Shown: in pieces, positions 3,936 to 24,305 of the stretch
Layout of the letters: each line of letters begins with the position of its first letter
Numbering within the stretch: the stretch's first letter is position 1
Assembly (NCBI GenBank): GCA_020402865.1
Contig: JADBYT010000006.1
Span: 1-64,000 of the forward strand
From: Bacteroidota bacterium
GTDB taxonomy: Bacteria; Bacteroidota; Bacteroidia; Palsa-965
DNA: 64,000 bases
Reading direction: 5' to 3'
Made by a program: the position numbers and the translations under genes
Notes under the pieces: generated by a model
The model's database searches: none
What the model saw: only the letters and a program-made list of their open reading frames with translations
What the model was told of the DNA's origin: nothing

Positions 3936-4163
3936 AATCCTGATTATTATGTAAAACATCAGGCTGCTTCCGAACCGACGAAAGCTACTTAACCCACACG
4001 CATAACAACAGCATCATTCATCTTGTTGATTTAAGACTTTGCGAAAACTGCAAAACGCTACACAAATAAACCTTTCAAAATAATCAACACAACCAATCGC
4101 AACAAGCACTTGAAAGACTGTTGATAAAACAATTGATGTATATACACTATTGAAAAACAACGA

Positions 4164-4185
4164 CCCGGCTTTATTCAAAGCCGGG
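4164..4185 (-). terminator. Rho-independent terminator after the sigma/anti-sigma-like pair
   Basis: Perfect 9-bp GC-rich stem (4164-4172 with 4177-4185) and 4-nt loop, about 28 nt beyond the stop at 4213, followed on the minus strand by a T-rich run. It closes the sigma-factor operon before the S74 gene. The rest of 3936-4212 is AT-rich leader without a convincing gene. Confidence 0.8.
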
Positions 4186-4212
4186 CCTGTATTTAACCAA
4201 AACAAAAGGAAA

Positions 4213-5401: not shown

Positions 5402-5520
5402 ACGTGCAGCTTGGCTCCGCCGGATTCTACGTGTAAAAGACGCTAAAAGGTACAACAGGTTGCCCCGGCCAACAGATAAAAATACGATTAAAAGGGGATA
5501 GACTTGAAAAGCCGGGGAGT

Positions 5521-6252: not shown

Positions 6253-6260
6253 TGGCGCAA

Positions 6261-7514: not shown

Positions 7515-7545
7515 ACGTTTACTTCAAAAGTTGAATCCAGTAGGA

Positions 7546-7785
7546 TTACTTGGTAGCGTGTTCCTGAATGTAGGTAACAGCGTCACCCACAGTGGCGATT
7601 TTCTCAGCCTGATCGTCAGGAATAGCAATGTTGAACTCTTTTTCAAATTCCATGATGAGCTCAACGGTATCAAGCGAGTCAGCACCAAGATCGTTGGTAA
7701 AGCTGGCAGACTCGGTTACTTCGCTGGCTTCAACACCGAGTTTGTCAACAATGATGCTTTTCACTTTTTCAGCAATATCAGACAT
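7546..7785 (-). CDS. acpP: Acyl carrier protein
   Basis: 79 residues from ATG 7785 ([11 protein letters not shown]); the longer frame from 7818 starts inside the untranslated leader downstream of the promoter. Ser37 in [10 protein letters not shown] is the 4'-phosphopantetheine attachment site. Very acidic, as expected. First gene of acpP-fabF-rnc, with its own promoter-like sequence upstream. Confidence 0.96.
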
Positions 7786-7815
7786 TGTATTAGGTTTTTG
7801 GTTATAGTTTGCGTG

Positions 7816-7844
7816 CAAAGATAGCCGGAGGGGACGAAAAACAA
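7816..7844 (-). promoter_or_regulatory. Bacteroidota-type promoter of acpP-fabF-rnc
   Basis: Minus strand: TTG at 7844-7842, 18-nt spacer, TATCTTTG at 7823-7816, matching the -33 TTG / -7 TAnnTTTG consensus. Predicted start near 7809 gives a leader of about 24 nt before the acpP ATG. Confidence 0.75.
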
Positions 7845-7878
7845 AACCTTTTTTGCCTTTCGGCTGATAATCAGCCTA

Positions 7879-8544
7879 TTACTTATAGACAAAGCAAATC
7901 TCTTCCAGACTTTTACGCTTTAAATCGGGAACAAGGCAATTTTCGGCCACGTAACCAACCGGAATAAGCAGGAAAGGCCGCTCGTTTTCGGGCCTGTTGA
8001 GCAATGTGCTTAAAAAGTTCATCGGGCTTGGCGTGTGCGTAAGTGCCGACAGCCCGGCCTGATGAATAGCCGCAAGCAAAAACCCGCAGGCCAGTCCCAC
8101 CGATTCATTTACATAATAATTGTTCTTTTTACGTCCGTTTACCTCTTCATACGCCCGCCTGAACACCACAATAAGCGCGGGTGCGGTTTCCAGAAAAGGC
8201 TTCTGCCAGTCGGTCCCGAGCGGCGCCAGATCATCGAGCCAGTCTTGCGGCATACGGCCGTTATAACTTTCATATTCTTCCTTTTCTGCCGCTTCGCGTA
8301 TCCGGCGTTTCAGCTCGGCATTGGTAACAAGACAAAACGACCAGGGCTGTTTATGTGCGCCCGAAGGAGCGGTGGATGCCGTAAGGATAAGTTGTTCGAG
8401 CACCCCTTCCGGAATGGGATCGGGCAAAAATTCGCGCACCGTGCGGCGGCTGTCCATATAATGATAAAAACGGGCAGCACGCTCCTGCATTTCAGCAGGC
8501 AACAACCGGGGGCGCGAATAAGGAATGTGCGGATAATCAGACAT
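7879..8544 (-). CDS. Nitroreductase-fold flavoprotein, iodotyrosine deiodinase (IYD)-like
   Basis: 221 residues. FMN-binding start RRTVREFLPDPIP, then STAPSGAHKQPW, a hallmark of the IYD branch of the nitroreductase superfamily. The substrate-lid residues that bind the halotyrosine zwitterion in mammalian IYD (Glu, Tyr, Lys) appear here as Glu90, Tyr94 and Lys115, with the same 4 and 21 residue spacing, in a region reading RMPQDWLDDL. The C-terminal PVGYVAENCLVPDLKRK also matches the family. Bacterial IYDs reductively dehalogenate halotyrosines; the physiological substrate here is unknown. Soluble, no signal peptide. Encoded alone, same strand as but separate from acpP. Confidence 0.8.
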   Translation of the reverse strand: MSDYPHIPYSRPRLLPAEMQERAARFYHYMDSRRTVREFLPDPIPEGVLEQLILTASTAPSGAHKQPWSFCLVTNAELKRRIREAAEKEEYESYNGRMPQDWLDDLAPLGTDWQKPFLETAPALIVVFRRAYEEVNGRKKNNYYVNESVGLACGFLLAAIHQAGLSALTHTPSPMNFLSTLLNRPENERPFLLIPVGYVAENCLVPDLKRKSLEEICFVYK

Positions 8545-8639
8545 TATAAAAATAACGGCAGGGTGAATAGCATGACCTGCACATCAGGCACAAGTTCGTA
8601 ATTATCGGGAGAATTGAAAAAAGGGGAATCGGCAAGGGG

Positions 8640-8879
8640 TTAGCCGTGAGCGGGGCATTTTTTGCAGCGCTTCTTCTCTTTCCAGGCTTTGCAGCACTTT
8701 TTTTTCTTCTTCAGCTCAATGGCAAATTGCTGCCACGAACAGCCAAAACAGGCAGGCGTAGTGTTTTCGGGAGAAATAGCCGGACGAAGCAGTTGAGGAT
8801 TCACGGTGCAAAGAACGGCCAGCCTGCCGGGAGCGACAATACCCAAAAGAGGGTAAATTGATCCCGGCAGACACTGCAA
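8640..8879 (-). CDS. Small Cys/Lys-rich protein, unknown function
   Basis: 79-codon frame whose last ~36 residues are striking: CFGCSW, then a run of five Lys, a Cys-Cys pair, and a closing CKKCP segment, i.e. two CxxC pairs plus CC in a basic tail. This composition is unlikely as an accidental translation and suggests a metal- or nucleic-acid-binding peptide. The start is uncertain: the first in-frame ATG (8879) gives an unremarkable N-terminus, and a GTG within the frame could give about 54 residues. It lies between a minus-strand gene and a divergent promoter. Confidence 0.45.
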   Translation of the reverse strand: MQCLPGSIYPLLGIVAPGRLAVLCTVNPQLLRPAISPENTTPACFGCSWQQFAIELKKKKKCCKAWKEKKRCKKCPAHG

Positions 8880-8890
8880 TGCTAACTTTG
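8858..8890 (+). promoter_or_regulatory. Promoter of DAHP synthase gene
   Basis: TTG at 8858-8860, 22-nt spacer, TAACTTTG at 8883-8890, matching the Bacteroidota -33/-7 consensus with a slightly long spacer. The start of transcription would fall near 8896, about 44 nt before the ATG at 8940, which argues against the GTG at 8916 as sole start. Confidence 0.6.
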
Positions 8891-8939
8891 CAAGCCACCG
8901 GGTACAACACTTGCCGTGTTTACCTGTTATTTAGATACT

Positions 8940-10040
8940 ATGCCTGATACCCGTCTTGACCTCGATCTTGAACCCGTAAGCCACTGGTTGCCTGCACGGT
9001 GGAAGAAAATACTGATTACAGGGCCTTGCGGCGCCGAAAGCGAAGCACAGGTGCTTGAAACAGCCCGTGGTATTGCCGCACACGGACAAGCCTCATTATT
9101 CAGGGCGGGTGTGTGGAAACCGCGTACACGTCCGGGCGCATTTGAAGGCATGGGCGAAGCGGCGCTGGAATGGCTGAAAATGGTAAAAGCCGAAACCGGT
9201 TTGCCCGTAACCGTTGAGGTAGCTACGGCCGCACACACTGAGCTGGCGCTCAAAGCCGGCATTGATGTGTTGTGGATTGGTGCACGCACTACGGTTAATC
9301 CGTTTTCGGTACAGGAAATTGCGGATGCGCTGGCTGGCAGCAATGTGCCTGTACTGGTAAAAAATCCGGTTAATCCTGATCTCATGCTCTGGTTTGGCGC
9401 CCTCGAACGGCTTAACCGCGCCGGCATCCGCAAACTGGGCGCTATTCACCGTGGCTTCAGCACCGGCACCAAAACACAATACCGCAATGCCCCGCTCTGG
9501 GAAATGGCCATTGCCCTTCGCAGCGCCTGCCCTGCCCTGCCCCTGATTTGCGATCCCAGCCACATCAGCGGCCGCCGCGATCTGATTGAACCGGTGTCGC
9601 AGCAGGCACTTGATCTGGACATGGACGGACTGATGATTGAAACGCACCGCGACCCAGCTACTGCGCTCAGCGATGCCGCACAGCAACTCACGCCCACACT
9701 GTTGCAGCTGCTGCTTCAGAAATTAGTGGTGCGCGACAAAGGCTGCAGTGATGCCAATTTTGGTCATCAGCTCAACTCGCTGCGCACGGTAATCGACGAT
9801 ATTGATGCCGAAATGGTGCAGGCGCTTGCCCGGCGTATGCAGGTGGTGGAAGAAATTGGCAGCTACAAAAAAGAGCACGGCGTTACCATACTTCAAATCG
9901 AACGCTGGCTGCATATCCTGCAAACACGCACCGCACAGGGCGAAGCACTTGGCCTTGATAAAGATATTATTGCAGAACTCTGTCAGCTGCTTCACAAAGC
10001 ATCCATTCGCAGACAAACGGAAGTGATGAACAGGGGGTGA
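8940..10040 (+). CDS. Bifunctional DAHP synthase / chorismate mutase
   Basis: 366 residues from ATG 8940 (MPDTRLDLDL); a GTG at 8916 would add eight residues. N-terminal domain ~20-260 is a KDO8P/DAHP synthase-type barrel (ITGPCGAESEAQ, FRAGVWKPRTRPGAFEG, VLVKNPVNPD, CDPSHISGRR). C-terminal ~275-366 is an AroQ-type chorismate mutase (LRTVIDDIDAEMVQALARRM, VEEIGSYKK). The fusion joins the first step of the shikimate pathway to the committed step toward phenylalanine and tyrosine, and often makes the synthase prephenate-sensitive. It stands alone here. Confidence 0.92.
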   Translation: MPDTRLDLDLEPVSHWLPARWKKILITGPCGAESEAQVLETARGIAAHGQASLFRAGVWKPRTRPGAFEGMGEAALEWLKMVKAETGLPVTVEVATAAHTELALKAGIDVLWIGARTTVNPFSVQEIADALAGSNVPVLVKNPVNPDLMLWFGALERLNRAGIRKLGAIHRGFSTGTKTQYRNAPLWEMAIALRSACPALPLICDPSHISGRRDLIEPVSQQALDLDMDGLMIETHRDPATALSDAAQQLTPTLLQLLLQKLVVRDKGCSDANFGHQLNSLRTVIDDIDAEMVQALARRMQVVEEIGSYKKEHGVTILQIERWLHILQTRTAQGEALGLDKDIIAELCQLLHKASIRRQTEVMNRG

Positions 10041-10121
10041 TATCTGACTAATACAAACTATACACAAATAATTTTTTTATACTTAGTAATTAAACAATAA
10101 AATAGTCGTATTCATACTTAA

Positions 10122-10151
10122 TTGAATATTATCGGAAAAACGGTAGTATTG
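10122..10151 (+). promoter_or_regulatory. Possible promoter of the HsdR-N protein
   Basis: TTG at 10122-10124, 19-nt spacer, TAGTATTG at 10144-10151 (one mismatch to TAnnTTTG). It lies in a conspicuously AT-rich stretch (10041-10179) just before the gene at 10180. Confidence 0.4.
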
Positions 10152-10179
10152 TAGAAAATAACCTACACAACTACCCACA

Positions 10180-11280
10180 ATGGATTTCAAAGACCAGATC
10201 AAACAGATCGGCGAACGCGCCGTAAAACTCCGCGACCAGATTCTAACCGAAGAGGCAACCAAAAACGCATTGGTCATGCCAATGTTGCAGGCATTGGGCT
10301 ACGACATATTCAATCCACTAGAAGTGGTTCCCGAATTTATTTCTGATGTAGGTCTTAAAAAGGGGGAGAAGATTGACTATGCAATAATGAAAGATAATCT
10401 TCCCGTGCTGCTCGTTGAATGCAAGCACTGGTCAAAAAACCTTGACCTGCACGATGGACAATTGCTCCGCTATTTCCACGTATCAAAATCACGTTTCGGT
10501 GTGCTTACCAACGGAATCGTTTATCGTTTCTATTCCGATCTGGTTGAGACAAATAAAATGGATGAAAAACCGTTTCTTGAATTTTCGGTAATTGATATTA
10601 AAGAGAATCAACTTGAAGAACTCAAGAAATTTCACAAATCCTATTTCGATATCGAAAACATTATCAGCGCAGCAAGTGAATTGAAATATATGAATGAGCT
10701 AAGAAGCCTCATTTCCGCCGAGTTTACCAATCCCGGCGAAAATTTTGTACGTCATTTTGCGAAACAGGTTTATCCCGGTATGATTACAGCAAAAGTACTT
10801 GATCAGTTTACTACACTTACCCGAAAATCAATGCAGATCTATATTTCGGACATTATTACTGAACGCCTCAAAACAGCTCTTTCCAATGAGAATGAAACGG
10901 TAAAATCAGAAACGATATCAACTGCTGAAATACCCGAACAAAAATCAAAAATTACAACCACCGAAGAAGAACTTGAGGCCTACCTGATTGTAAAATCTGT
11001 ATTGCGACTGTTGATAAGCCCTAATCGCATTCATTACCGCGATGCACAATCGTACTTTTCGATTTTGCTGGATGATAACAACAGGAAACCGGTTTGCCGA
11101 TTTTATCTCGAAGGTGAAAAGAAACAGATTTCATTCCTTGATGCGCAGAAAAAGGAAACGAAATACGAACTAAAATCACTGAACGATATTTATTCGTATT
11201 CCGAACAGCTTACTTCAGCAGCAGTCATGTACGACCAGACAAAAGAAGGTAATCAGGATCCCGAAAATACAGGGAACTGA
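10180..11280 (+). CDS. Stand-alone HsdR N-terminal domain (PD-(D/E)XK nuclease-like) protein
   Basis: 366 residues. Residues ~20-170 match the N-terminal nuclease domain of type I restriction HsdR subunits as found in stand-alone proteins (COG4748 type): MPMLQALGYDIFNP, then the candidate metal-binding set Asp66 (KIDYAI), Glu80 and Lys82 (LLVECKHW), and HDGQLLRYF. The C-terminal ~260-366 is a separate Lys/Glu-rich segment of unknown fold. There is no helicase and no hsdM or hsdS partner nearby. More AT-rich than its neighbours, which fits acquisition by transfer. A role in defence or DNA repair is possible but unproven. Its stop is 2 nt from that of the convergent CotH gene. Confidence 0.75.
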   Translation: MDFKDQIKQIGERAVKLRDQILTEEATKNALVMPMLQALGYDIFNPLEVVPEFISDVGLKKGEKIDYAIMKDNLPVLLVECKHWSKNLDLHDGQLLRYFHVSKSRFGVLTNGIVYRFYSDLVETNKMDEKPFLEFSVIDIKENQLEELKKFHKSYFDIENIISAASELKYMNELRSLISAEFTNPGENFVRHFAKQVYPGMITAKVLDQFTTLTRKSMQIYISDIITERLKTALSNENETVKSETISTAEIPEQKSKITTTEEELEAYLIVKSVLRLLISPNRIHYRDAQSYFSILLDDNNRKPVCRFYLEGEKKQISFLDAQKKETKYELKSLNDIYSYSEQLTSAAVMYDQTKEGNQDPENTGN

Positions 11281-11282
11281 TT

Positions 11283-13382
11283 TCAATTCCCTTTCACCAC
11301 CCGCTGCACACGCACCACATTACCGGTTTGCACACGCAGCAGATACACACCCGCAGGCAGCTGCGACGCATCAATGCTTACTGTTTGCAAACCTGTGTTT
11401 AGCTGCTGCAGCGGCGTAATAAGCACTGTGCGCCCCGCCAGATCGGTAAAAGAAATTTCTACCGGCGATGCCTGTGCAACATCAAGCTGCACATTGAGCA
11501 AGCCCGTAAACGGATTGGGATAAACCGTCACACTGCCCTGCGGTGTGGCGGTTTCGTTTACCGAAGTAAGGTTACAGCCATTCATATTGCCGGGCATATT
11601 GGCATCAAGAAACGCCAGACGCAAACGGATAAACTGCTTCAGCCTGTCAATCTCTTCCTGATACGATTGTGCAGGCGGATCCACTTCGGGCGCTCCGGTG
11701 GCCTGCCCCATGTGGCCCCAGTAATCGTAATGCCGCTGCTGCGCTTCGTTTACCAAAGCAGCTACCGAATCCATATAATTGAACAAATAGGTGGTATCTA
11801 ATACAGTTTCGCGAAGTTCAAACCAGCGGCAGTGGAGCTGATTGGCGAAATTGGTGTCCTGCAACAAACGCACATACCACGCCGGCGAATTCACATCGGG
11901 CGAACAGTCGTTTACCAGATAAGACCAGCCGGAGCCATCAGTCATTTGCGAATTTACACAGCCCGGAATATTCTTCCACGCCCAGTCGAAATCCCAAACC
12001 GGGCCGGCTTTCATTTTACCGATGGTGCCGTTTGCATTATCTTTTTCCTTATAATAATAACAGCTTTTCTTGTGCCCGTCCACATTGCGAGAAAGTTCAT
12101 TTACAATCCAGTAATCCATAAATGAGCGCACACTGATGTATTTGCGGTAGCCCACAGCCGTATCGGCAAAAGCCGCTCCGTAGAGTGCAGTTTCGTAATC
12201 GTTTACGAATGTCTGAATGTAAGTTTGCTGCTGGGGTACAAGGTCGGCCGGATCGGGATATACATACACCATGTGTACATCCATGTTCGGGTAGCCGATG
12301 GGCGAAAAACCAAGCTGCCAGGAATTGGCATTGTCCCAGTAATCTGTTTTCAGCATGTAACCGCCTGATACATCGGGCCAGGTGGTTTCGTTCGGATCGA
12401 GACGGGCAATATCCACGCGGTTTGCATCGCGTTTAATTGTTTCGCAAAGCAGATATACGCCCTGATATTCGCCGTTGAGCACCACTTCAACCAGCCTTGC
12501 GCGCGGGGCATAGTGGCCGGTTTTGTCAAACACATCAAACGCCAGCAAATTACGCATAAACGATTTGTCGTTGTAGTTGGCCAGCAGCGCCCAGTCGTTT
12601 TCCGAGGGCATTCCCAGCAACGGTACATTGAGTGAGTTGCCATTCACATCACGCGTTTCAATGCCGTAAGGTTTTTGCGGGAGAATGGCCGAATAGTTGC
12701 CACGAATATCAATTCCGATTTTCCCGTTATAATCGTTAAACGGATCGGTAAGGTAGTTGCGCACACTGGGACCGTTGTAGATAATTCCCATATCGGCCAT
12801 AATTTTCGGGCCCTGCGGGATGGGCTGGTTGTTTGTGTTGAGTACAACAATAGGCAGATTGGAAGAAGAAAAACCCAAGTTGCTGGCCGGATTGTTGCCA
12901 AACGTGAGTGACCAGCTGATTACATTGCCCACATCACCGCCATATAAATCAGTGATGCGCAGTGTCCAGTTTCCGTTGCCGTTTTGTCCGTTGTTTATAC
13001 GCCCCATGAAACCCTGCGGAACATAGCTGCCGGTAAACGGAGGCGAACCCAGCGTGATGCTGGTGGAGGCAGTTTCGTTAAAACAGGTATTGGTGAAATT
13101 ATCGCCCGACCCGCCCTGCTCGCGTGAAAGCGTGATGGTAGTGCTATCAGGCGCAAGCAATTCAATGAGCAGATCACCGTCGTAGGTATGCGTGAGATTG
13201 ATGCACACGGTTTCAAGACCAAATGCAGCCGTGTCAATGGTAGCCGGAGAAAGGCCTGACACGTTACAGTTAAATGAATTTACGGCCAGGTCATTAATTG
13301 CGCCGCCGGTGCCGTTGTAGGTTTGGGCACGAAGCGGAACTAAACAGCCAAGACAGAGAATGAACGCGAAAAGGTGTTTCAT
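11283..13382 (-). CDS. Secreted P-domain / CotH-kinase / T9SS protein (copy 1)
   Basis: 699 residues. Signal peptide ends LRAQ (~20). Proprotein convertase P-domain ~25-165 (GLETVCINLTHTYDGDL, NNGQNGNGNWTLRITD). CotH kinase domain ~180-600 (KPYGIETRDVNGN, LNGEYQGVYLLCETIKRD, GGYMLKTD, and the metal-site-like WDFDWAWKN). T9SS type A domain ~615-699 (VYPNPFTG, PAGVYLLRV). CotH kinases phosphorylate spore-coat proteins in Bacillus; this homologue would act outside the cell on unknown targets. Most diverged of the four copies and separated from the other three by the BNR protein. Its start region is divergent from the gene at 13508. Confidence 0.88.
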   Translation of the reverse strand: MKHLFAFILCLGCLVPLRAQTYNGTGGAINDLAVNSFNCNVSGLSPATIDTAAFGLETVCINLTHTYDGDLLIELLAPDSTTITLSREQGGSGDNFTNTCFNETASTSITLGSPPFTGSYVPQGFMGRINNGQNGNGNWTLRITDLYGGDVGNVISWSLTFGNNPASNLGFSSSNLPIVVLNTNNQPIPQGPKIMADMGIIYNGPSVRNYLTDPFNDYNGKIGIDIRGNYSAILPQKPYGIETRDVNGNSLNVPLLGMPSENDWALLANYNDKSFMRNLLAFDVFDKTGHYAPRARLVEVVLNGEYQGVYLLCETIKRDANRVDIARLDPNETTWPDVSGGYMLKTDYWDNANSWQLGFSPIGYPNMDVHMVYVYPDPADLVPQQQTYIQTFVNDYETALYGAAFADTAVGYRKYISVRSFMDYWIVNELSRNVDGHKKSCYYYKEKDNANGTIGKMKAGPVWDFDWAWKNIPGCVNSQMTDGSGWSYLVNDCSPDVNSPAWYVRLLQDTNFANQLHCRWFELRETVLDTTYLFNYMDSVAALVNEAQQRHYDYWGHMGQATGAPEVDPPAQSYQEEIDRLKQFIRLRLAFLDANMPGNMNGCNLTSVNETATPQGSVTVYPNPFTGLLNVQLDVAQASPVEISFTDLAGRTVLITPLQQLNTGLQTVSIDASQLPAGVYLLRVQTGNVVRVQRVVKGN

Positions 13383-13413
13383 GAGCAGCTGAAGTTGTGG
13401 AAAGGGAGCTATG

Positions 13414-13421
13414 TAAAGATA
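13414..13421 (-). promoter_or_regulatory. Promoter -7 box of CotH copy 1
   Basis: Minus-strand TATCTTTA, 32 nt before the ATG at 13382; resembles TAnnTTTG. No clear -33 TTG at the ideal spacing. Confidence 0.4.
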
Positions 13422-13442
13422 AGATTATGCAAATGTGAATAG

Positions 13443-13470
13443 TTGTTTCGCATAATTTTTCTTATTTTCA
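13443..13470 (+). promoter_or_regulatory. Possible promoter of BNR-repeat protein
   Basis: TTG at 13443-13445, 17-nt spacer, TATTTTCA at 13463-13470, 37 nt before the ATG at 13508. Two mismatches to the -7 consensus. Confidence 0.35.
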
Positions 13471-13507
13471 CTGCTACATCTCCCACTCTTTTATAAATCA
13501 TTCTCTC

Positions 13508-16168
13508 ATGAAACGCATATTACTTGCTATTGCTGTGCTTTTTGCTGCCGTTCAGGCCAATGCACAAAAACCATTTGCGGTAAAAAATCCGGGCGATGCA
13601 CGTTCGTTCAATGAACACCAGCGGCAATACAATGCCTGGAAAGACAGCACCGATCTTCGATCAGCCAAACACTGGAAGGCACACGCCCGCTGGATGGCTG
13701 ATGAGCAACTGCATCTCGGTGCTAATGGTGAGCCGGTTGATCCTTCAGGTTACATTGCCGCCGCTGTTGATCATTCGGCGCAGCAGCAGGCTATGCAGAA
13801 TGCGCGTTTCAGCAGCACAGGCTGGTATCCGTTCGGACCCAATGCCGTGCCGCAAAACAACACGGGCTACATGGAAAACGGCATTGGCCGTATAAACTGC
13901 ATTGCCTTTCATCCTAGCGCTGCCAACACCTACTTTGTGGGCGTGGCGCAGGGCGGTGTGTGGAAAACTACCGATAACGGTAATACATGGACGCCCCTCA
14001 CCGACAACCTTCCGATTACACGCATCAGCGATATTGCCATTGACCCGGTGAACCCGAACACCATGTACATTTCGGTTGGCGATTATGCCTATATCGACTT
14101 CGGCAACCTTGTGTTCGGGCGAAAGCGCCACTCGCATTACGGCATTGGCGTGTATAAAACCACCGACGGCGGACTTACCTGGCAACCTACCGGACTTACG
14201 TACCAGCTTACAGATGGCGATGCTTCACTCATACGCAAAGTACTGGTGCATCCGTCAAACACCAATACATTGCTGGCCTGCGGTGTGAGCGGCATGTTTC
14301 GCAGCACCGACGGCGGCGCAACATGGAGCACGCAGCTCGACTCGCTGTTCTGGGATCTTGTGGCCGATCCTACACAGCCCAATGTAGTGTATGCCGCCAC
14401 CGGCTGGCTCAGCTTTTCAAACATCGGCAATGCTGCCATCTATAAATCAACCGACTTCGGTGTAACCTGGACCATGCTTAACACCGGTATTCCGGCCACG
14501 GGCTCGGTACAGCGTATCAAGCTCGCCGTAGCGCCATCAGACAACAACCGCATTTACGCCCTCGCTGTTGATCAGTTTCGCGGCTACTACGGTATGTACA
14601 AATCATCCAATGCCGGAAACACGTGGACGTTTTTGCCACCCACGCTGAACATTCTCGAAGCCGGCGAAGGCTCCGGGCAGGGCGGACAAGGCACATACGA
14701 TCTTGCGTTGCTTGTGCATCCTACCAATGCCAACACGGTGTACACAGGCGGTATCAATCTGTGGGGTTCGGTTGATGGTGCCGTTTCGTTTAACCCGATC
14801 AGCCACTGGACACTTTACTACGGCCCCACATTGCACGGCGATATTCATTTCCTCGAACGGCAACCCCTTACGGGAAATATTTTCTGCTGCAACGACGGTG
14901 GCATTTACCGCACCACAAATGTGCAGATCAGCACATGGAATGATGCCAACAATGGGGTGCCCTGGCCCACGCAATGGACAAACATCAGCAACGGCATGCA
15001 GGTTACTTCGTTTTACCGCCTCTCTGCACCAAGAAACGGACTCGTTAACGTGGTGGCCGGCGCGCAGGATAATGCCACTTTTTATTACGATGGTTCGGCA
15101 TGGTCAACCGTTTATGGCGGCGATGGAATGGACAACCTGATGCACCCCACTTCGGCATCCACGTTTTTTGCCTCGTCGCAATACGGCTATTTTGACCTGA
15201 CTTACGACGGACAAAATTTTGTGGGCATTCCGCTTACGCAGGGCGGCAATGGCGAATGGGTTACACCTATTACACAAAACGGGGCAGGAACCGTATATAT
15301 CGGCTTCCGCGATGTAATGATGAGTACTGATTTCGGTAATTCGTGGACTCAAATCTCTAGCTTCCCGCAGCAGTTTTATACGCCCGAAATTTCGGCCATT
15401 GCAGCATCCAACAGCAATTCACAAACCGTAATTGCATCTACACGTGTACGCTACGAGTACAGTCTTCCGTCGGCGTTTTATATCACTACCAACAACGGTA
15501 ACACATGGACCACAATTACCGGGCTACCCGATTCGCTTTATTGCACGGGACTTGAGTTTGACGAAAACAACAGCAGTATTGTGTATGCCTGCTTTGCCGG
15601 TTTCAGCGCCGGAAACAAAGTGTTTAAAAGCACAAACGGTGGCGCAAGCTGGACCAACATCAGCTACAACCTGCCTAATATTCCGGTAAACTGCATCAAA
15701 TATATTCCTGCCAGCGGAGGCAAAATGATAATCGCCACTGATATTGGTGTTTATACCTTACAGCCCAATGCCACACAATGGCAAAACGAAAGCACCGGCC
15801 TGCCCAACGTAATTGCCAGCGATATTGATATTGATCCCAGCACCAACACCATTTACCTGAGCACATTCGGCCGTGGTATCTGGGCTGCGCCGCTCAGCGG
15901 ATTTACATCCGTAACCACGGTTAGCATGGCTGCGCCCGAACTTTATCCCTCACTCAACAATGGTTTGTTTACCATTCAGCTTCCTGAATCGCTCGCCGGA
16001 CAGGCGCTCACGCTTGATGTAATTGATGTGATGGGTCGAACAGTGAACACACAGCCGCTAACCGGCAGCAGCCGCCACGAGCTGAATCTTCTGCTTGCGC
16101 CCGGCCAGTATGTTGCCCGTATTTCGGGGAACAATTATGTGGGCGTGAAACAGTTTGTAGTACAGTAA
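13508..16168 (+). CDS. Secreted BNR/Asp-box beta-propeller protein with T9SS tail
   Basis: 886 residues. Signal peptide 1-19 (VQANAQ). The body carries many Asp-box repeats of the S/T-x-D-x-G-x-T-W type (KTTDNGNTW, KTTDGGLTW, RSTDGGATW, KSTDFGVTW, KSSNAGNTW, KSTNGGASW), giving one or two beta-propellers as in sialidase, sortilin or xyloglucanase folds. The C-terminus (~805-886) is a T9SS type A-like domain (LYPSLNNGLFTIQL, LAPGQYVARISG) without a strict PNP turn. No catalytic residues can be assigned, so it may be a binding protein rather than an enzyme. It sits between the CotH copies, convergent with copy 2. Confidence 0.85.
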   Translation: MKRILLAIAVLFAAVQANAQKPFAVKNPGDARSFNEHQRQYNAWKDSTDLRSAKHWKAHARWMADEQLHLGANGEPVDPSGYIAAAVDHSAQQQAMQNARFSSTGWYPFGPNAVPQNNTGYMENGIGRINCIAFHPSAANTYFVGVAQGGVWKTTDNGNTWTPLTDNLPITRISDIAIDPVNPNTMYISVGDYAYIDFGNLVFGRKRHSHYGIGVYKTTDGGLTWQPTGLTYQLTDGDASLIRKVLVHPSNTNTLLACGVSGMFRSTDGGATWSTQLDSLFWDLVADPTQPNVVYAATGWLSFSNIGNAAIYKSTDFGVTWTMLNTGIPATGSVQRIKLAVAPSDNNRIYALAVDQFRGYYGMYKSSNAGNTWTFLPPTLNILEAGEGSGQGGQGTYDLALLVHPTNANTVYTGGINLWGSVDGAVSFNPISHWTLYYGPTLHGDIHFLERQPLTGNIFCCNDGGIYRTTNVQISTWNDANNGVPWPTQWTNISNGMQVTSFYRLSAPRNGLVNVVAGAQDNATFYYDGSAWSTVYGGDGMDNLMHPTSASTFFASSQYGYFDLTYDGQNFVGIPLTQGGNGEWVTPITQNGAGTVYIGFRDVMMSTDFGNSWTQISSFPQQFYTPEISAIAASNSNSQTVIASTRVRYEYSLPSAFYITTNNGNTWTTITGLPDSLYCTGLEFDENNSSIVYACFAGFSAGNKVFKSTNGGASWTNISYNLPNIPVNCIKYIPASGGKMIIATDIGVYTLQPNATQWQNESTGLPNVIASDIDIDPSTNTIYLSTFGRGIWAAPLSGFTSVTTVSMAAPELYPSLNNGLFTIQLPESLAGQALTLDVIDVMGRTVNTQPLTGSSRHELNLLLAPGQYVARISGNNYVGVKQFVVQ

Positions 16169-16183
16169 ACGTTACTACACAAA

Positions 16184-16215
16184 AAATGCCGGTCAGTACG
16201 TGCTGTCCGGCATTT
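16184..16215. terminator. Bidirectional terminator between BNR and CotH genes
   Basis: Nine-bp stem 16184-16192 with 16207-16215, extendable past one mismatch by three inner pairs, with A-rich left and T-rich right flanks. It lies between the convergent stops at 16168 and 16238 and can serve both strands. Confidence 0.75.
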
Positions 16216-16237
16216 ATTATTTCAATGATTTTACATG

Positions 16238-18304
16238 CTATTCAGACTTCAGCACCTGCTGCGTCCAGATATTATTTCCGGCTGAAATGCGCAGGAAATA
16301 CACGCCCCCGCTCATTCCGTCAGGCACGGTAAACTGATACATACTACCCGAAGAAACCGGAGCAAGCTGTGTGGCATATACCGTTTGTCCCAATGTATTG
16401 ATGAGTTGGATTTGCACCGGCGCCGAAGGCGTGAGGCCCAATGTAAAGCCGAGCGACTGTGTAAACGGATTGGGGAATACATTGCCCGATAATGAAGTAT
16501 AATCGGGCAAACCGGTGAGGTTACAATTTGGATTACCCGGCAAATTACCATCGAGCCATACGCCACGCTGCTGAATCCAGAGTTTAAGTTCGGCAATTTC
16601 CCCGGCATAATCGGCCGGAATAGGCGAAGGATTAGGCCATACATAAGTGCCAAGTATAGGCCATACCTGAAAATTGCGCTGCTGGCTTTCGTTCAGGTAA
16701 AGCGCCATCGAATCGCAGTAATTATATAGTCGTTGCTGACTGAGAATTGTTTGGCGGAGCTCCTGCCAGCGGCATTGCACTTTGTTTGCAAAAGCAGTAT
16801 CCTGTACCAGACGCGCCCACCACGTAGGCACATCTTCACCGCCAGGACAAAGCACCGTAGTATTGTAAGCCCACCCGTTTATCTGATCGCCGCCACAATA
16901 GTCGGCGTTATGCCAGCTCAGGTCATAATCCCACACCGGGCCGATTACCAGCTTGCCTCCGTCTGAATCTTTTCGTTTATACAGAAACGTAGATAGCCGA
17001 TAACCATCTACATTCTTGCTGAATTCATTGATGATGAAATAATCTACAAATGAATTCACATCAATATACTTTGCATAACCCGTGAGCGGATCGGCAAAGT
17101 TTGCACCGTCAAGCGCTGTTTCAAAACTATCCACGTAGCTTTGAATATAGGCTTGCTGCTGAGGCACAATATCATCGCCATTCGGATATACATACTGAAT
17201 AAACACCGAGCCGCCCGTCGATCCCGGATAGCTGCTGGTCCAACCGGGCGAGTTTTGTCTGTCCACTTTAATGATATACCCACCGGTGAGTTCATCACCA
17301 GCGATATCAGTTACCTGAAGTTTGGCAATATCCACTCTGTCGTTGTCGCGTTTTACTTTTTCTATAAACAGGTAATTACCCATGTACTCGCCATTGAGCA
17401 CAAGTTCCACGTGCTGCGTACGGGGTGCGTACCAGCCCATATCGCGTGCAAGCTGGTAGGAAAGTGCATTGTTCAGCAATGATTTATCGGCATAATTTGC
17501 CGCAAGAATCCAATCACTTTCTTTGGGCATACCAAACATCGACGAATCAATATCATTACCGTTTACATCCCAAAGTTCGATGCCGTATGATTTTTTGGGC
17601 ATACCCTGCGAACTTGCCCCGCGCAATTCAATGCCAATTTTTCCATTGTAATGATTAAAAGGATCGGTGATGTAGTTACGCGCGGCTCCGTTCCAGATCA
17701 CTCCCATATCGGCCATAATTTTAGGCTCATCTGAAATCGACAGGCTGTTTGTATTGATTACGATAATGGGTAAGTTGGAGGAAACAAATGGAATATAGGC
17801 GGCGGGATTGTTTCCGAACGTGATGCTCCAGCTTATGAGCGTGCCGTTATCAGCCGGATAGGTATCGGTAATGCGGAGCATCCAGGTACCGTTTCCGTTC
17901 TGGCCGTTGTTTACGCGGCCCATCTGCCCCATTGGTTTAAACGTGCCGGTAAAGGGCGCAGTGCCCTGCGTAATGGTTTGCGTGGTATTCTGATTGAAAC
18001 AGGTGTTTGTGTAATTATCGTCTGAGCCGCCCTGACCTGCCACCAGCATGCCCGAAGTACCATCGGGCGCAACAATGTAAATTTCAAGGTCGGCATTCCA
18101 GGTATGCGTGAGGTCGATACACACGGTTTCGAGACCGAATGTGGAGGTATCAATTGTTGACGGTGAAAGCCCGCTCACGGTGAGCGGATAATCGGTGGTG
18201 GCGTAATCGTTTATGGTTTGATTAGGGCTGGCGGTAAAGGTTTGAGCCTTAACAAGGCTCGCCAGAATAATCAACAGCAGTGCAGCAATACATTTTGGTC
18301 TCAT
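16238..18304 (-). CDS. Secreted P-domain / CotH-kinase / T9SS protein (copy 2)
   Basis: 688 residues. Signal peptide ends VKAQ (~21). P-domain ~25-170 (GLETVCIDLTHTWNADLEI, NNGQNGNGTWMLRITD). CotH kinase ~185-600 (KKSYGIELWDVNGN, LNGEYMGNYLFIEKVKRD, GGYIIKVDR, WDYDLSWHNAD). T9SS tail ~605-688 (VFPNPFTQ, SGGVYFLRIS). Last gene of the three-gene operon: its ATG overlaps the upstream stop by 4 nt. The kinase core resembles copy 4, while the P-domain is closest to copy 3. Extracellular protein kinase activity is inferred from family. Confidence 0.88.
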   Translation of the reverse strand: MRPKCIAALLLIILASLVKAQTFTASPNQTINDYATTDYPLTVSGLSPSTIDTSTFGLETVCIDLTHTWNADLEIYIVAPDGTSGMLVAGQGGSDDNYTNTCFNQNTTQTITQGTAPFTGTFKPMGQMGRVNNGQNGNGTWMLRITDTYPADNGTLISWSITFGNNPAAYIPFVSSNLPIIVINTNSLSISDEPKIMADMGVIWNGAARNYITDPFNHYNGKIGIELRGASSQGMPKKSYGIELWDVNGNDIDSSMFGMPKESDWILAANYADKSLLNNALSYQLARDMGWYAPRTQHVELVLNGEYMGNYLFIEKVKRDNDRVDIAKLQVTDIAGDELTGGYIIKVDRQNSPGWTSSYPGSTGGSVFIQYVYPNGDDIVPQQQAYIQSYVDSFETALDGANFADPLTGYAKYIDVNSFVDYFIINEFSKNVDGYRLSTFLYKRKDSDGGKLVIGPVWDYDLSWHNADYCGGDQINGWAYNTTVLCPGGEDVPTWWARLVQDTAFANKVQCRWQELRQTILSQQRLYNYCDSMALYLNESQQRNFQVWPILGTYVWPNPSPIPADYAGEIAELKLWIQQRGVWLDGNLPGNPNCNLTGLPDYTSLSGNVFPNPFTQSLGFTLGLTPSAPVQIQLINTLGQTVYATQLAPVSSGSMYQFTVPDGMSGGVYFLRISAGNNIWTQQVLKSE

Positions 18305-20394
18305 TGCGGCGTCTTGATTAGCAGTTGTGTATGAAGCGAGGTGTGTTCACCGTTTATACGGATGAAATAATTGCCTGGTGCAAGTGTGGCAAGATTAAGC
18401 GTAACTGAATTGGCACCGGCAAAAGCCTGAAGCGAAACCGGCTGTACTACTTCGCGGCCGGCAATATCGCATACGGTTATTTGCACACGGTCGGCAGCAG
18501 GCAGTGTGAATGTAGCCGTGGAAAAACCATTGGCCGGATTGGGATACAACAGCAGTGAGCCGGCGGATGATGAGCTGTTTACCGAAAGTGGATTGCAGCC
18601 CGCAACAGTACCCGGCAAATTATTATCCAGCCACAGCATGCGTTCATTGGTCCACCATTTCAGCGTATCCACTTCCTCCTGATAATTCTGGCCAATGTAA
18701 TAGTTGGGCCACACGTACGAACCCATAATCGGCCACACGGTAAAATTCCAGCCCTGCGATTCATTCATATAAGCAGCCGTAGAATCAATCCAGTTGTTGA
18801 GATATGCCTGACTGAGCACTGTGCCGCGAAGTTCTTCCCAGCGGCAGCGCACCTGCTGCATAAAGATGGAATCCTGTGTCATACGTTCAAACCAGAACGG
18901 ATTGAGCCAGTAATCGCCGCCGCATACATAGTTGAAGTTATATTGCCAGCCGGTGTAATCCTGTCCATTACAAAAATCCACGTTCCCATACGTAAGGTCG
19001 TAATCCCAGATGGGTGCCATTACCAGCTTCCCGCCTTTACTGTCGCGGTCTTTATAGATGTAGAAACTCTTGCGGTACGCATCAATACTTTTCGAAAGTT
19101 CCTGCACGATAAACGCATCCACGCATGAATTTATATCTGCGTATTTGCGATAACCCGTTTGCATATTCATAAATCCGGGGCCTATCAGCGCGGTTTCAAA
19201 ACTATCCACATACGCGCGGATATAGGCTTCCTGCTGGGGTACAATGTCGGCGCCATCGGGATAATAGTAATTGATGTAAATAGAATCGCCGGCGGGCCAG
19301 GGCATGTAGTTTGAATTCCAGCCCGGATCGCTGCTGCCCGAATTTTTATCGAGTTTGAGAATGTATCCGCCGGTAAGCTGGTCGCCGCTGATGTCGGTAG
19401 GCTGCAGTTTTGAAATGTCTATCCGGTCGCCATCACGTTTCACTTTTTCCATGAGGATGTAAACGCCCAGGTACTCGCCGTTGATGATGAGTTCAACCGG
19501 TTTGCAGCGCGGCGCATACCAGCCCATCTGGTTAAAAATGTGAAACGTGAGCATACCGCGCATGAGCGTTTTATCAGTGTACTGCGCGCTTAGCACAAAA
19601 TCTGCTTCTTTCGGAAAGCCGCAGAGTGCGCTGTCGATATCGTTTCCGTTTACATCGCGCAGCTCAATATCGTACGACTTTTTCGGGAAACCGCCCGAAC
19701 TGGCTCCGCGTGTTTCAATGCCCACTTTTCCGTTGTAGTGGTTAAACGGATTATTCAGGTAATTGCGGTTACCATCGCCGTTCCAGATTACGCCCATATC
19801 AGCCATAATCTTTGGTTCGTCGGGGATGGCCTGTGAATTGGTGTTGATGACAAAAATGGGCAGGTTTGATTCGGTGATTGAAAAGAAGTTGGCGGGATTA
19901 TTTCCGAATGTCATGCTCCAGCTGATGAGCGTGCCGTTGTCGGCCGGATACGTATCGGTGATGCGGAGTGTCCAGGTGCCATTTCCGTTCTGGCCATTGT
20001 TTACGCGGCCCATCTGCCCCATTGGTTTAAATGTGCCGGTAAATGGCGCCGTGCCTTGTGTAATGGATTGCACCGTGTACACATTGAAACAGGTGTTTGT
20101 GTAGTTGTCGTCTGATCCGCCCTGTCCCGCAACCAGCATGGCAGTAGTGCCATCGGGCGCAATGAGAAAAATGTCGAGATCGGCATTCCACGTATGCGTG
20201 AGGTCGATACATACGGTTTCAAGGCCGAACGTAAGTGTATCAATGGTTGCGGGCGAAAGTCCGCTCACGGTGAGCGGGTAATCGGTGGTGGCGAAATCGT
20301 TAATGGTTTGATTGAGTGTGACTGAAAACGTTTGAGCCCGTGTGCTGCCCGCCAGCGTGAGCAACGCCAGCAATGCAATCAGTTTTAGTTTCAT
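18301..20394 (-). CDS. Secreted P-domain / CotH-kinase / T9SS protein (copy 3)
   Basis: 697 residues. Signal peptide ends TRAQ (~21). The P-domain is almost the same as in copy 2 (GLETVCIDLTHTWNADLDI, GTFKPMGQMGRVNNGQNG). CotH kinase ~190-605 (KKSYDIELRDVNGN, INGEYLGVYILMEKVKRD, WDYDLTYGNVD) is distinct from copies 2 and 4. The T9SS domain ~612-697 is nearly identical to that of copy 4 (YPNPANGFSTATFTLPAADR). Middle gene of an operon with 4-nt overlaps on both sides. The two ends resemble different neighbours, suggesting recombination among the copies. Confidence 0.88.
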   Translation of the reverse strand: MKLKLIALLALLTLAGSTRAQTFSVTLNQTINDFATTDYPLTVSGLSPATIDTLTFGLETVCIDLTHTWNADLDIFLIAPDGTTAMLVAGQGGSDDNYTNTCFNVYTVQSITQGTAPFTGTFKPMGQMGRVNNGQNGNGTWTLRITDTYPADNGTLISWSMTFGNNPANFFSITESNLPIFVINTNSQAIPDEPKIMADMGVIWNGDGNRNYLNNPFNHYNGKVGIETRGASSGGFPKKSYDIELRDVNGNDIDSALCGFPKEADFVLSAQYTDKTLMRGMLTFHIFNQMGWYAPRCKPVELIINGEYLGVYILMEKVKRDGDRIDISKLQPTDISGDQLTGGYILKLDKNSGSSDPGWNSNYMPWPAGDSIYINYYYPDGADIVPQQEAYIRAYVDSFETALIGPGFMNMQTGYRKYADINSCVDAFIVQELSKSIDAYRKSFYIYKDRDSKGGKLVMAPIWDYDLTYGNVDFCNGQDYTGWQYNFNYVCGGDYWLNPFWFERMTQDSIFMQQVRCRWEELRGTVLSQAYLNNWIDSTAAYMNESQGWNFTVWPIMGSYVWPNYYIGQNYQEEVDTLKWWTNERMLWLDNNLPGTVAGCNPLSVNSSSSAGSLLLYPNPANGFSTATFTLPAADRVQITVCDIAGREVVQPVSLQAFAGANSVTLNLATLAPGNYFIRINGEHTSLHTQLLIKTPQ

Positions 20395-22496
20395 TGCGGA
20401 GTATTGATTAGTAATGGTGTGTGAAGCGAGGTGTGTGTGCCGTTTATGCGGATGAAATAATTACCGGGTGCAAGTGCGGCGAGATTAAGCGTAACGGAAT
20501 TGGATCCTTCAAAAGCCTGTAATACCTGCGGCTGCATTACTTCACGGCCGGCAATATCACACACGGTTATTTGCACACGATCAGCAGCAGGCAGGGTGAA
20601 TGTGGCTGTGGAAAAGCCATTGGCCGGATTCGGATACACCAGCATCGAAGCCGCGGATGATGTGTTGTGTACTGAAAGCGGATTGCAGCCGGCGAGTGTA
20701 CCGGGCATGTTGGCATCCATCCAGTTACGGCGTGCGGTAATCCACTGCTTGAGTTCATCCACTTCGCCCTGATAGGTTGCGGGCTGCGGCGAAGGATTGG
20801 GCCACACATATGTGCCAAGTATAGGCCATTGCTGGAAATTGCGCTGCTGCCCTTCATTGAGCCACGCGGCGGTAGTATCGCACCAGTTGTGCAGGTAGGT
20901 TTCGCTGAGTGTGGTGGTTTTGAGTTCTTCCCAGCGGCAGCGCACTTTGTCGCGAAACGCCGGATCCTGCATGAGCCGCGTCCACCAGAAAGGCACCTGC
21001 CAGTAATCGCCGCTGCACACCTGCCCGAACTGATAAGCCCAGCCTGTAGTATCGCTGCCGCTGCAATAGTCGGCATTGCCCCAGGCAATATCATAATCCC
21101 ATGCCGGGCCGATAAACAATTTGTTCCCTGCCGTTATTTTCTCTTTGTAGAGATATGTACTCAGCCGGTAGCCATCCACATTGCGGCTTATTTCATTGAG
21201 CAGAAAATAATCCACAAACGAATTCACATCAATATACTTTGCATAACCCGTAAGCGGATCGGCAAAACTGGCGCCGTTCAGCGCAGTTTCAAAACTATCC
21301 ACATACGCCTGAATGTAGGCTTCCTGCTGCGGCACAATTACATCATCGGCCGGATATTCGTACTGAAAGAAAATGGTTTGCCCGTTGGGCGCCACATCAG
21401 GCGCATAGTTTGATGTCCAGCCGCCGCCACCGTTACCGGTGCCTTTATCCACTTTAATAATATATCCCCCTGTAAGCTCCGGCCCCGAAATATCGGTTAC
21501 CTGCAAATTGGCAATATCCACCCGGTTATTATCGCGTTTTATTTTTTCCATCATCACATACACACCCTGATATTGCCCGTCAATTACAAGTTCCACATAT
21601 ACCGTGCGTGGCGCATACCAGCCCATTTGCCCCGCCAGATGATAGGAAAGTACATTGTTCATGAGTGATTTATCCGAATAACTGGCACTCAGAATCCAGT
21701 CGCTTTCCTTGGGCATTCCCAATATCGACGAATCAATTTCGTTTCCGTTTACATCCCACAATTCAAGTCCGAAACCTTTTTTGGGAAACATCTGCGAACT
21801 TGATCCGCGCACTTCAATTCCTGCTTTCCCGTTGTAATGGTTAAGCGGATCAGTCATGTAATTGCGGGCATTGTTTGCATTCCAGATAATCCCCATATCC
21901 ACCATTATTTTCGGATCGTCGGGAATGGTCTGGTTTCCGGTATTGATAATTACGATAGGTAAATTGGAGGAAGTGAAATTGAGATTGGCAGCGGGTGTGC
22001 TGCTGAATGTGACACTCCAGCTGATGAGGGTTCCGGTATTGTTCCCCGTGTTGTTGTCGTCGTAAATGCGAAGGCGCCAGTTGCCGTTGCCGTTTTGTCC
22101 GTTGTTGAGCATGGGCATATTGCCCTCCGGTTTAAACGAACCGGTAAAGGGTGCTGTGCCGTTGATGATAAGATTCTGCACATCCCAACGGAAGCAGGTG
22201 TTGGTGTAATCATCATCCAGATCACCATTATCGGTGGTGAGTTCTACGATTGTGCCATCGGGCGATTCGACGTAAATATCGAGGTCGCGGTCTTTCGTAT
22301 GTGTGAGATCAATACATACCTGTTCGAGACCGAAGCTGCTGTTGATGACAGCCGGTGTGAGACCTGATACGGGGATAATGAAGTAAGTGGTATCCAGGTT
22401 GTCGGAAATGGCTCCACCGGTTCCTGTGAACGTTTGTGCACCAAGCGATGCAACAACGGTTAAAGCGAGCGAAGTAGTAAGTAGTGTTTTGTACAT
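20391..22496 (-). CDS. Secreted P-domain / CotH-kinase / T9SS protein (copy 4, first in operon)
   Basis: 701 residues. Signal peptide ends SLGAQ (~21). P-domain ~25-170 (GLEQVCIDLTHTKDRDLDI). CotH kinase ~190-610 (KKGFGLELWDVNGN, IDGQYQGVYVMMEKIKRD, GGYIIKVDKGTG, WDYDIAWGNAD). T9SS tail ~616-701 shared with copy 3. First gene of the three-gene unit, overlapping the next by an ATGA. The 100-nt gap to divergent recJ should hold the operon promoter, though I see no strong TAnnTTTG box there. Confidence 0.88.
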   Translation of the reverse strand: MYKTLLTTSLALTVVASLGAQTFTGTGGAISDNLDTTYFIIPVSGLTPAVINSSFGLEQVCIDLTHTKDRDLDIYVESPDGTIVELTTDNGDLDDDYTNTCFRWDVQNLIINGTAPFTGSFKPEGNMPMLNNGQNGNGNWRLRIYDDNNTGNNTGTLISWSVTFSSTPAANLNFTSSNLPIVIINTGNQTIPDDPKIMVDMGIIWNANNARNYMTDPLNHYNGKAGIEVRGSSSQMFPKKGFGLELWDVNGNEIDSSILGMPKESDWILSASYSDKSLMNNVLSYHLAGQMGWYAPRTVYVELVIDGQYQGVYVMMEKIKRDNNRVDIANLQVTDISGPELTGGYIIKVDKGTGNGGGGWTSNYAPDVAPNGQTIFFQYEYPADDVIVPQQEAYIQAYVDSFETALNGASFADPLTGYAKYIDVNSFVDYFLLNEISRNVDGYRLSTYLYKEKITAGNKLFIGPAWDYDIAWGNADYCSGSDTTGWAYQFGQVCSGDYWQVPFWWTRLMQDPAFRDKVRCRWEELKTTTLSETYLHNWCDTTAAWLNEGQQRNFQQWPILGTYVWPNPSPQPATYQGEVDELKQWITARRNWMDANMPGTLAGCNPLSVHNTSSAASMLVYPNPANGFSTATFTLPAADRVQITVCDIAGREVMQPQVLQAFEGSNSVTLNLAALAPGNYFIRINGTHTSLHTPLLINTPQ

Positions 22497-22598
22497 AGGC
22501 GGTAACTGGAACTAAGTTAAGAAATTATTATGCGACAGATCAGAATGTTAGACGCGGGTAAAGAATCAAAAGGGGGGAGTTGTGCGTAATTTCACGCC

Positions 22599-24305
22599 GT
22601 GAACAACCGGTGGACTCTTTTGCCGCATCCGAATCCTGCGCAGGCGCACCTGCTCAGCATTGATCTGGGTGTGCCGCCGTTAATTGCGCGTTTGCTGGTG
22701 CAGCGCGGCATTCACACGTTTGAGGAAGCCCGCCGTTTTTTCCGCCCCGCACTCACCGATTTACACAATCCGTTTTTAATGTGCGACATGGATAAAGCGG
22801 TGGATCGCATTGAACGCGCCATTGCTGCCGGCGAAAAAATTCTGGTGTATGGCGATTATGACGTGGACGGTACCACAGCTGTGGCGCTGGTGTGGAGCTA
22901 CCTGCAAAGCCGCGGTGTGCAGGCCGGCTTTTACATTCCCGACCGGTACAAGGAGGGCTACGGCATTTCGTTTACCGGCATTGAGTATGCGGCTGCGCAT
23001 GGCTATTCGCTTATTGTGGCGCTCGACTGCGGTATTAAGGCGGTGGATAAGGTGGAGTTTGCCAATTCGCTGCGCGTTGATTTTATTATCTGCGATCACC
23101 ACCGCCCCGGCCACACACTGCCGGCTGCCGTGGCCGTGCTTGATCCGAAACGCAGCGACTGTAATTATCCTTACGACGAGCTTACGGGCTGCGGCATTGG
23201 CTTTAAGCTGGTGCAGGCACTCGAACAGCAGCGCGGCCACACAGCGGATACCCTGGCCCCCTACCTCGATCTGGTAGCGGTGAGCATAGCGGCTGATATT
23301 GTGCCCATAACCGGTGAAAACCGCGCGCTTACCACCTTCGGGCTGGAGCGGATTAATGCTGCACCCCGGCCGGGGTTTGCGGCTATTCTTAAACTGGCAA
23401 GGCCACGGGGCGCCATCACCGTAAATGACCTCGTGTTTTTGCTGGCGCCGCGCATTAATGCGGCCGGACGAGTGCAGCACGGTACAAAAGCGGTAGAACT
23501 GCTTGTGGCCGGCAACACCACGCAAGCCGAAGCTGAAGCCGAAATCATTCAACGCCACAACACCGAACGAAAAGACCTCGACGTGCAGATTACACGCGAG
23601 GCACTTGAGGAACTTGACCTGAAGTCAGAGTGGACCGGCCGCAAATCAACCGTGCTGTTCAACAGCAACTGGCACAAAGGCGTGGTAGGCATTGTGGCTT
23701 CGCGGCTCATCGACCGCTACTACCGGCCTACCATTGTGCTTACGGCGGTTGATGGCGTGGCAACCGGCTCGGCCCGCTCCGTGCGCGATTTTGACGTGTA
23801 CGAAGCCATTGAGGCCTGCTCCGATCTGCTCATTCAGTTTGGCGGACATAAATACGCCGCCGGCCTTACATTAAAAACCGAAAACGTAGAACTTTTCCGC
23901 GCCCGTTTCGAAGAAGTAGTAAGCCGCACCATCACGCCCGATCAGCTCATCCCGGAAATTACCATCGACGCACCCCTCCCCCTCAACGATATCGACCCGA
24001 AAACAATCCGCCTGCTCAGGCAGTTTGCTCCCTTCGGACCGGGCAACATGAATCCGGTATTTCTGGCAAAAAGCGTGGCCGACAGAGGTTGGGCGCGCAT
24101 GGTGGGCAACAATCACCTCAAAGCCGACCTCATTGACCCCGCACAGCCCAACCGCATTTTCCCCGCCATCGGATTCGGGCTGGGCCAGCATACAGCTACC
24201 CTGCAACGCGGCAATCAGGCCGATATTTGTTATTGTATTGAAGAAAATACATGGAACAATACGGTTTCTCTTCAGCTCAACATAAAAGATATCCGCCCCG
24301 CCTGA
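22599..24305 (+). CDS. recJ: Single-stranded-DNA-specific exonuclease RecJ
   Basis: 568 residues from GTG 22599 (reading NNRWTLLPHPNP, as in other Bacteroidota RecJ). The DHH phosphoesterase motifs are intact: VYGDYDVDGTTAV (~83-95), ALDCGIK (~141-147), CDHHRPGH (165-172), and a C-terminal DHHA1 region with GGHKYAAGL. 5'-3' ssDNA exonuclease of recombination and mismatch repair. A TAATTTCA box lies only 4 nt before the GTG, so the leader would be very short. Monocistronic as far as visible. Confidence 0.95.
   Translation: MNNRWTLLPHPNPAQAHLLSIDLGVPPLIARLLVQRGIHTFEEARRFFRPALTDLHNPFLMCDMDKAVDRIERAIAAGEKILVYGDYDVDGTTAVALVWSYLQSRGVQAGFYIPDRYKEGYGISFTGIEYAAAHGYSLIVALDCGIKAVDKVEFANSLRVDFIICDHHRPGHTLPAAVAVLDPKRSDCNYPYDELTGCGIGFKLVQALEQQRGHTADTLAPYLDLVAVSIAADIVPITGENRALTTFGLERINAAPRPGFAAILKLARPRGAITVNDLVFLLAPRINAAGRVQHGTKAVELLVAGNTTQAEAEAEIIQRHNTERKDLDVQITREALEELDLKSEWTGRKSTVLFNSNWHKGVVGIVASRLIDRYYRPTIVLTAVDGVATGSARSVRDFDVYEAIEACSDLLIQFGGHKYAAGLTLKTENVELFRARFEEVVSRTITPDQLIPEITIDAPLPLNDIDPKTIRLLRQFAPFGPGNMNPVFLAKSVADRGWARMVGNNHLKADLIDPAQPNRIFPAIGFGLGQHTATLQRGNQADICYCIEENTWNNTVSLQLNIKDIRPA

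Follow-up and report, generated by a model that had tools for sequence, protein, structure and literature searches.

The window, that is, the whole stretch of 64,000 nucleotides that was analysed, contains four genes for putative CotH-type kinases (A to D) on the minus strand, together with a gene for a secreted propeller protein and two flanking genes that recur next to such kinases in relatives. The features are as follows:

8916..10040, plus strand: DAHP synthase/chorismate mutase, which flanks the kinase pair in relatives as well (synteny)
11283..13382, minus strand: CotH kinase A, 699 aa (P-domain 12900-13211, CotH 11607-12713, T9SS tail 11301-11525)
13508..16168, plus strand: secreted BNR/Vps10-type propeller with a T9SS tail, judged to lie outside the kinase system
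16238..18304, minus strand: CotH kinase B, 688 aa, third operon gene (P-domain 17816-18127, CotH 16553-17632, T9SS tail 16259-16480)
18301..20394, minus strand: CotH kinase C, 697 aa, second operon gene (P-domain 19906-20217, CotH 18628-19719, T9SS tail 18319-18549)
20391..22496, minus strand: CotH kinase D, 701 aa, first operon gene (P-domain 22005-22322, CotH 20718-21818, T9SS tail 20427-20639)
22599..24305, plus strand: single-strand exonuclease, RecJ-like as judged from its sequence, syntenic flank in G007 and G031

Each of the four kinases contains a P_proprotein (furin-type P-domain), a CotH domain and a Por_Secre_tail, all of which exceed the curated Pfam cut-offs. The CotH domain (PF08757) scores 185-230 bits against a cut-off of 23.8 and matches the model over its full length (positions 1-322), and the Por_Secre_tail scores 27.4-49.4 bits against a cut-off of 27, with the lowest value, 27.4, in B; the C-terminal sorting domain is over the cut-off in both PF18962 and TIGR04183. 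The N-termini display a hydrophobic run up to AQ and are signal-peptide-like as judged by eye. Apart from this visual assignment of the signal peptides, the coordinates and Pfam domains agree with the earlier note, which had described four proteins with signal peptide, P-domain, CotH domain and T9SS tail. PorV-like and PorP/SprF proteins are encoded in the source genome, which indicates that a T9SS is present.

Genes D, C and B are joined, in this direction, by 4-nt ATGA overlaps (D/C at 20391/20394 and C/B at 18301/18304) and form the overlapping three-kinase operon that had been proposed, and kinase A lies outside this operon, with the divergent BNR gene in between. A scan of 11000-22800 for promoters and terminators yielded signals no more frequent than in shuffled sequence. 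A stand-alone ORF of 366 aa with an HsdR-N domain is located at 10180-11280, between the DAHP synthase gene and kinase A, and is missing from the position between DAHP synthase and kinase in the relatives that were read. The source genome has eight CotH genes, four of them inside the window. Another tandem array, with four CotH proteins of ~1000 aa on the minus strand, is found in L048 (G041:C38) at 3579-16229, and Hymenobacter sp. BT18 encodes a P-CotH protein with a T9SS tail (L059).

An AlphaFold model of D, built on an alignment of 54 proteins, has a mean pLDDT of 90. Structural alignment of residues 178-600 with B. cereus CotH (5jd9) gives a Z score of 32.6 over 339 residues at 3.0 Å, and the model aligns similarly with the Mg/AMP complex of CotH (5jda; Z 32.3, 341 residues, 3.0 Å). 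Residues 19-167 match the P-domains of furin (Z 13.8) and Kex2 (Z about 13), and residues 613-701 match T9SS C-terminal domains such as the CTD of NucA/mirolase. The CotH fold is assigned to D from this model and to A, B and C from the pairwise identity among the four proteins, which is 47-60% and far beyond chance; the identity of the window kinases to the solved CotH proteins is only 16-19%. The alignments with HipA-like kinases and CtkA (Z 9-12) reflect only a distant common kinase fold.

In B. subtilis CotH, the D228Q and D251A mutants are inactive (PMC7821199). The corresponding residues of D were mapped via 5jd9, in which the pair has the same 23-residue spacing as in B. subtilis, and are encoded at the following positions according to the alignment:

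21174..21176, minus strand: codon of Asp441 of D (NxDG motif), first catalytic Asp, D228 in B. subtilis
21096..21098, minus strand: codon of Asp467 of D (WDxD motif), second catalytic Asp, D251 in B. subtilis

The position of D441 is occupied by Asp in 53 of the 54 aligned relatives, and that of D467 in all 54. A loss of the catalytic residues, which the earlier note had named as evidence against its proposal, was looked for, and the Asp pair is intact in A, B, C and D; in C, the motif NVDGYR is replaced by SIDAYR with retention of the Asp. At the Lys position K239, near a conserved Arg/Lys segment, the A-type proteins have Gln and so differ from the others.

In a tree of 64 P-CotH domains, A falls in a clade with 100/100 support, and B, C and D lie outside it. 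The A clade also contains copies from Flavobacteriaceae and from Fluviicola relatives, as well as a source-genome copy on contig C19. A search of other Bacteroidota for the same neighbourhood, as the earlier note had recommended, reveals that an A + D pair does recur. An absence of neighbourhood conservation, part of what the earlier note had said would count against its proposal, is not observed. In four relatives (G001, G003, G005 and G007), a D-type gene and, immediately after it, one of the A type lie near the DAHP synthase/chorismate mutase gene, from which the pair is separated by three further genes in G003. The D-type gene stands alone at this locus in G004, and the two types are about 8 kb apart in G006. 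In a genome of another family (G031), the A + D pair is adjacent to the recJ-like gene, as is D in the window. The A type and the B/C/D type are two ancient subfamilies, and because the A + D pair recurs in the neighbourhoods of relatives, this pair is read as an old, conserved working pair and B and C as surplus copies, that is, additional lineage duplicates of one ancestral type.

Adjacent copies also share tracts of unusually similar sequence:

18301..18617, minus strand: T9SS tail tract of C, 83% nucleotide identity to D 20391-20707
17550..18248, minus strand: N-terminal tract of B, 79% nucleotide identity to C 19637-20338 across the P-domain

The nucleotide identity between C and D over their last ~110 codons is 80-81%, whereas that between D and its G006 orthologue is only 44-45% in this region, which is a sign of a recent exchange between C and D or of a duplication of the tail. 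Between B and C, identity is 71-82% over the first ~230 codons, compared with 36-64% for the remainder. The shared tracts are read as the product of gene conversion or unequal crossing-over among neighbours.

The context of related domains points to the cell surface. Single proteins combine the P-CotH unit with 7-12 SprB adhesin repeats (L061, L063 and L091) or with PKD domains (L066, L071 and L107), and CotH domains that lack the P-domain are fused to laminin-G (L114) and CBM9 (L134). These fusions place CotH among surface adhesion and matrix proteins.

Taken together, the domains, the match of the D model to CotH, the intact Asp pair, the A/D pairing in two families and the adhesin fusions suggest that A to D are probably active, exported CotH-fold Ser/Thr kinases that act on exported proteins. 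The proteins would be exported by Sec into the periplasm and fold there, after which the T9SS would carry the folded kinases to the cell surface. The role of the P-domain is probably to stabilise the kinase or to dock it on its targets. These would most likely be further proteins that the cell exports, namely adhesins of the surface or matrix components, phosphorylated in transit or at the surface; the phosphorylation of CotB and CotG by CotH on Bacillus spores serves as a model for such targets. A and D would form the conserved working pair, and B and C probably widen the substrate range or the dosage. The low identity to solved CotH proteins and the Gln at K239 in the A type count against kinase activity, as does the location, since ATP is not expected beyond the inner membrane. 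The architecture, the Asp pair and the kinase neighbourhood favour the extracellular phosphorylation system that the earlier note had suggested, but the word "dedicated" is too strong, because B and C arose by duplication of a single ancestral type and have been shaped by sequence exchange.

A possible source of phosphoryl groups is indicated by another CotH copy of the source genome, which heads an operon on contig C10 (232000-237000; L052:8084-12965) in the order CotH, a 132-aa lipoprotein-like protein, a 197-aa protein, a VTC polyphosphate polymerase domain (PF09359), DUF4956 and DUF2490. The same order, with a lipoprotein and a protein of ~190 aa between CotH and VTC, is repeated in many Bacteroidota families; in L163-L174, the genes that recur at this place encode a lipoprotein-like protein of 128-240 aa and an RHS-like protein of ~190 aa. 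A P-domain CotH of the window type is found inside the VTC operon in L049, L079 and L128, which represent two lineages given that L079 and L128 are closely related. Because the VTC protein has no meaningful match among PDB sequences, its polymerase function is assigned from the Pfam family. Immediately before the VTC operon, L163, L165 and L166 contain genes for an arylsulfotransferase-like and a CBM48-like T9SS protein; the same two genes precede another CotH gene of the source genome, with which they form an arylsulfotransferase-like/CBM48-like/CotH-LTD T9SS cluster on C2 (about 449700-454600; L054:6658-11644).

For 19 of the 38 VTC genes, which come from 33 genomes, there is a CotH gene at a distance of 5 kb or less, compared with 0.5 expected. 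All 40 VTC-positive genomes in a sample of 218 genomes of the phylum carry CotH (both/CotH only/VTC only/neither, 40/46/0/132; p=6e-20), and the association is also observed when each family is represented by a single genome (25/4/0/19; p=8e-10) and in 59 relatives (31/5/2/21; p=2e-9), where the p values treat genomes as independent and the one-per-family count alone eases this assumption. PPK1, the usual bacterial polyphosphate kinase, was used as a control and displays no association with CotH (p=0.89). Arylsulfotransferase (PF05935) had been tried as a neutral control and was replaced by PPK1, as 10 of its 42 copies adjoin CotH and a weak association results (p=0.018). VTC occurs in the absence of CotH in G009, G011 and the control genome of Bacteroides ihuae, and CotH, VTC and DUF4956 are all present in the control genomes of C. 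glutamicum and M. acetivorans.

These observations raise the possibility that CotH kinases use polyphosphate as the phosphoryl donor or attach polyphosphate to surface proteins, with VTC synthesis in the cytosol followed by outward passage via DUF4956 and the DUF2490 outer-membrane protein. The appeal of such a donor is that T9SS cargo acquires its fold in the periplasm, a compartment not expected to contain ATP, and that yeast VTC enzymes couple polyphosphate synthesis to membrane passage. The constant company of CotH in VTC-positive genomes of the phylum sample, the null result for PPK1, the proximity of the genes and the recurring operon order, including the P-CotH members and the C10 copy of the source genome itself, are consistent with it. 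However, the link is one-sided, as 46 of the 86 CotH-positive genomes in the phylum sample are devoid of VTC, and G006, a relative of the same genus as the source, lacks VTC and has nine CotH genes. None of the window kinases A to D adjoins VTC and DUF4956, ATP is a known donor for CotH in vitro, and the transport role of DUF4956 and DUF2490 is a guess, the DUF4956 model being uninformative (pLDDT 50). The involvement of polyphosphate is a tentative proposal of low probability, and it is somewhat more doubtful still that Bacteroidota extracellular phosphorylation is powered by polyphosphate that VTC, DUF4956 and DUF2490 export and that T9SS-exported CotH proteins, including the P-domain type, use. 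As this is a special case of the exported-kinase reading, the confidences attached to the competing explanations overlap.

Alternatively, the CotH fold may be largely or wholly non-catalytic and act at the surface as a ligand or a structural module. The modules to which it is fused (SprB, PKD, laminin-G and CBM9) would fit this role, and fungal CotH3 is a host-cell ligand (PMC12211043); as the Mucor-type CotH proteins are such ligands, a CotH domain need not imply kinase function. The Asp pair, which a pure ligand would not need, is nevertheless near-invariant in the 54 diverse relatives, and a binding protein is considered unlikely. It is improbable that the cluster is a mere duplication array kept by chance and devoid of a dedicated function: the tracts common to neighbouring copies and the variation of CotH copy number among relatives are in line with this explanation, but the A and D types remain adjacent in different genera as well as in one further family, and their catalytic residues are intact. 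The idea that the BNR propeller and the CotH genes are one functional unit, with the BNR protein as the substrate or partner that the earlier note had envisaged, is very improbable and is abandoned. The adjacency, seen in this window only, speaks for it, but the orthologues (56-60% identity) are on contigs other than that of the kinase pair in 6/6 relatives (G001, G003, G004, G005, G006 and G007), the source genome has 19 BNR-family matches that indicate a large paralogous family, and the BNR gene interrupts a kinase pair whose members stand next to each other in most relatives. The adjacency in the window is best regarded as a lineage-specific rearrangement.

The exported-kinase reading bears on how a kinase may function beyond the Gram-negative inner membrane, a question that the CotH neighbourhood and the tie to VTC make experimentally approachable. 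This tie, absent for PPK1, offers a possible answer to how such a kinase works without ATP. To our knowledge, no targets of CotH kinases outside spores have been described, and the conserved kinase-pair neighbourhood together with the CotH-VTC tie makes such targets directly testable as well. Our literature search found no paper that discusses T9SS-exported CotH, and it met the link between CotH and a polymerase only for Gram-positive Pel loci.

Among known systems, Fam20C-type kinases of the secretory pathway resemble A to D in that they act on exported proteins, but they are eukaryotic and are supplied with ATP in the Golgi. The invasins of Mucorales, compared by description, likewise expose a CotH domain on the surface, but they are fungal and are ligands of host GRP78. 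The spore coat kinase CotH of B. subtilis and B. cereus (5jd9, 5jda) is similar in fold (Z 32), in the Asp pair and in its location in an outer surface layer; it differs in sequence (16-19% identity), and the window proteins add a P-domain and a T9SS tail, occur in several copies and belong to a Gram-negative phylum. Finally, a gene set of CotH, a polyphosphate polymerase and DUF4956 is found beside Gram-positive Pel loci (PMC7112168), and the same combination of CotH, a VTC-type polymerase and DUF4956 occurs on C10 of the source genome and across the Bacteroidota. Compared with the Pel-locus set, the four CotH copies of the window are not adjacent to VTC/DUF4956, and in the Bacteroidota form CotH is exported by the T9SS and the set also includes DUF2490 and a small lipoprotein-like gene.
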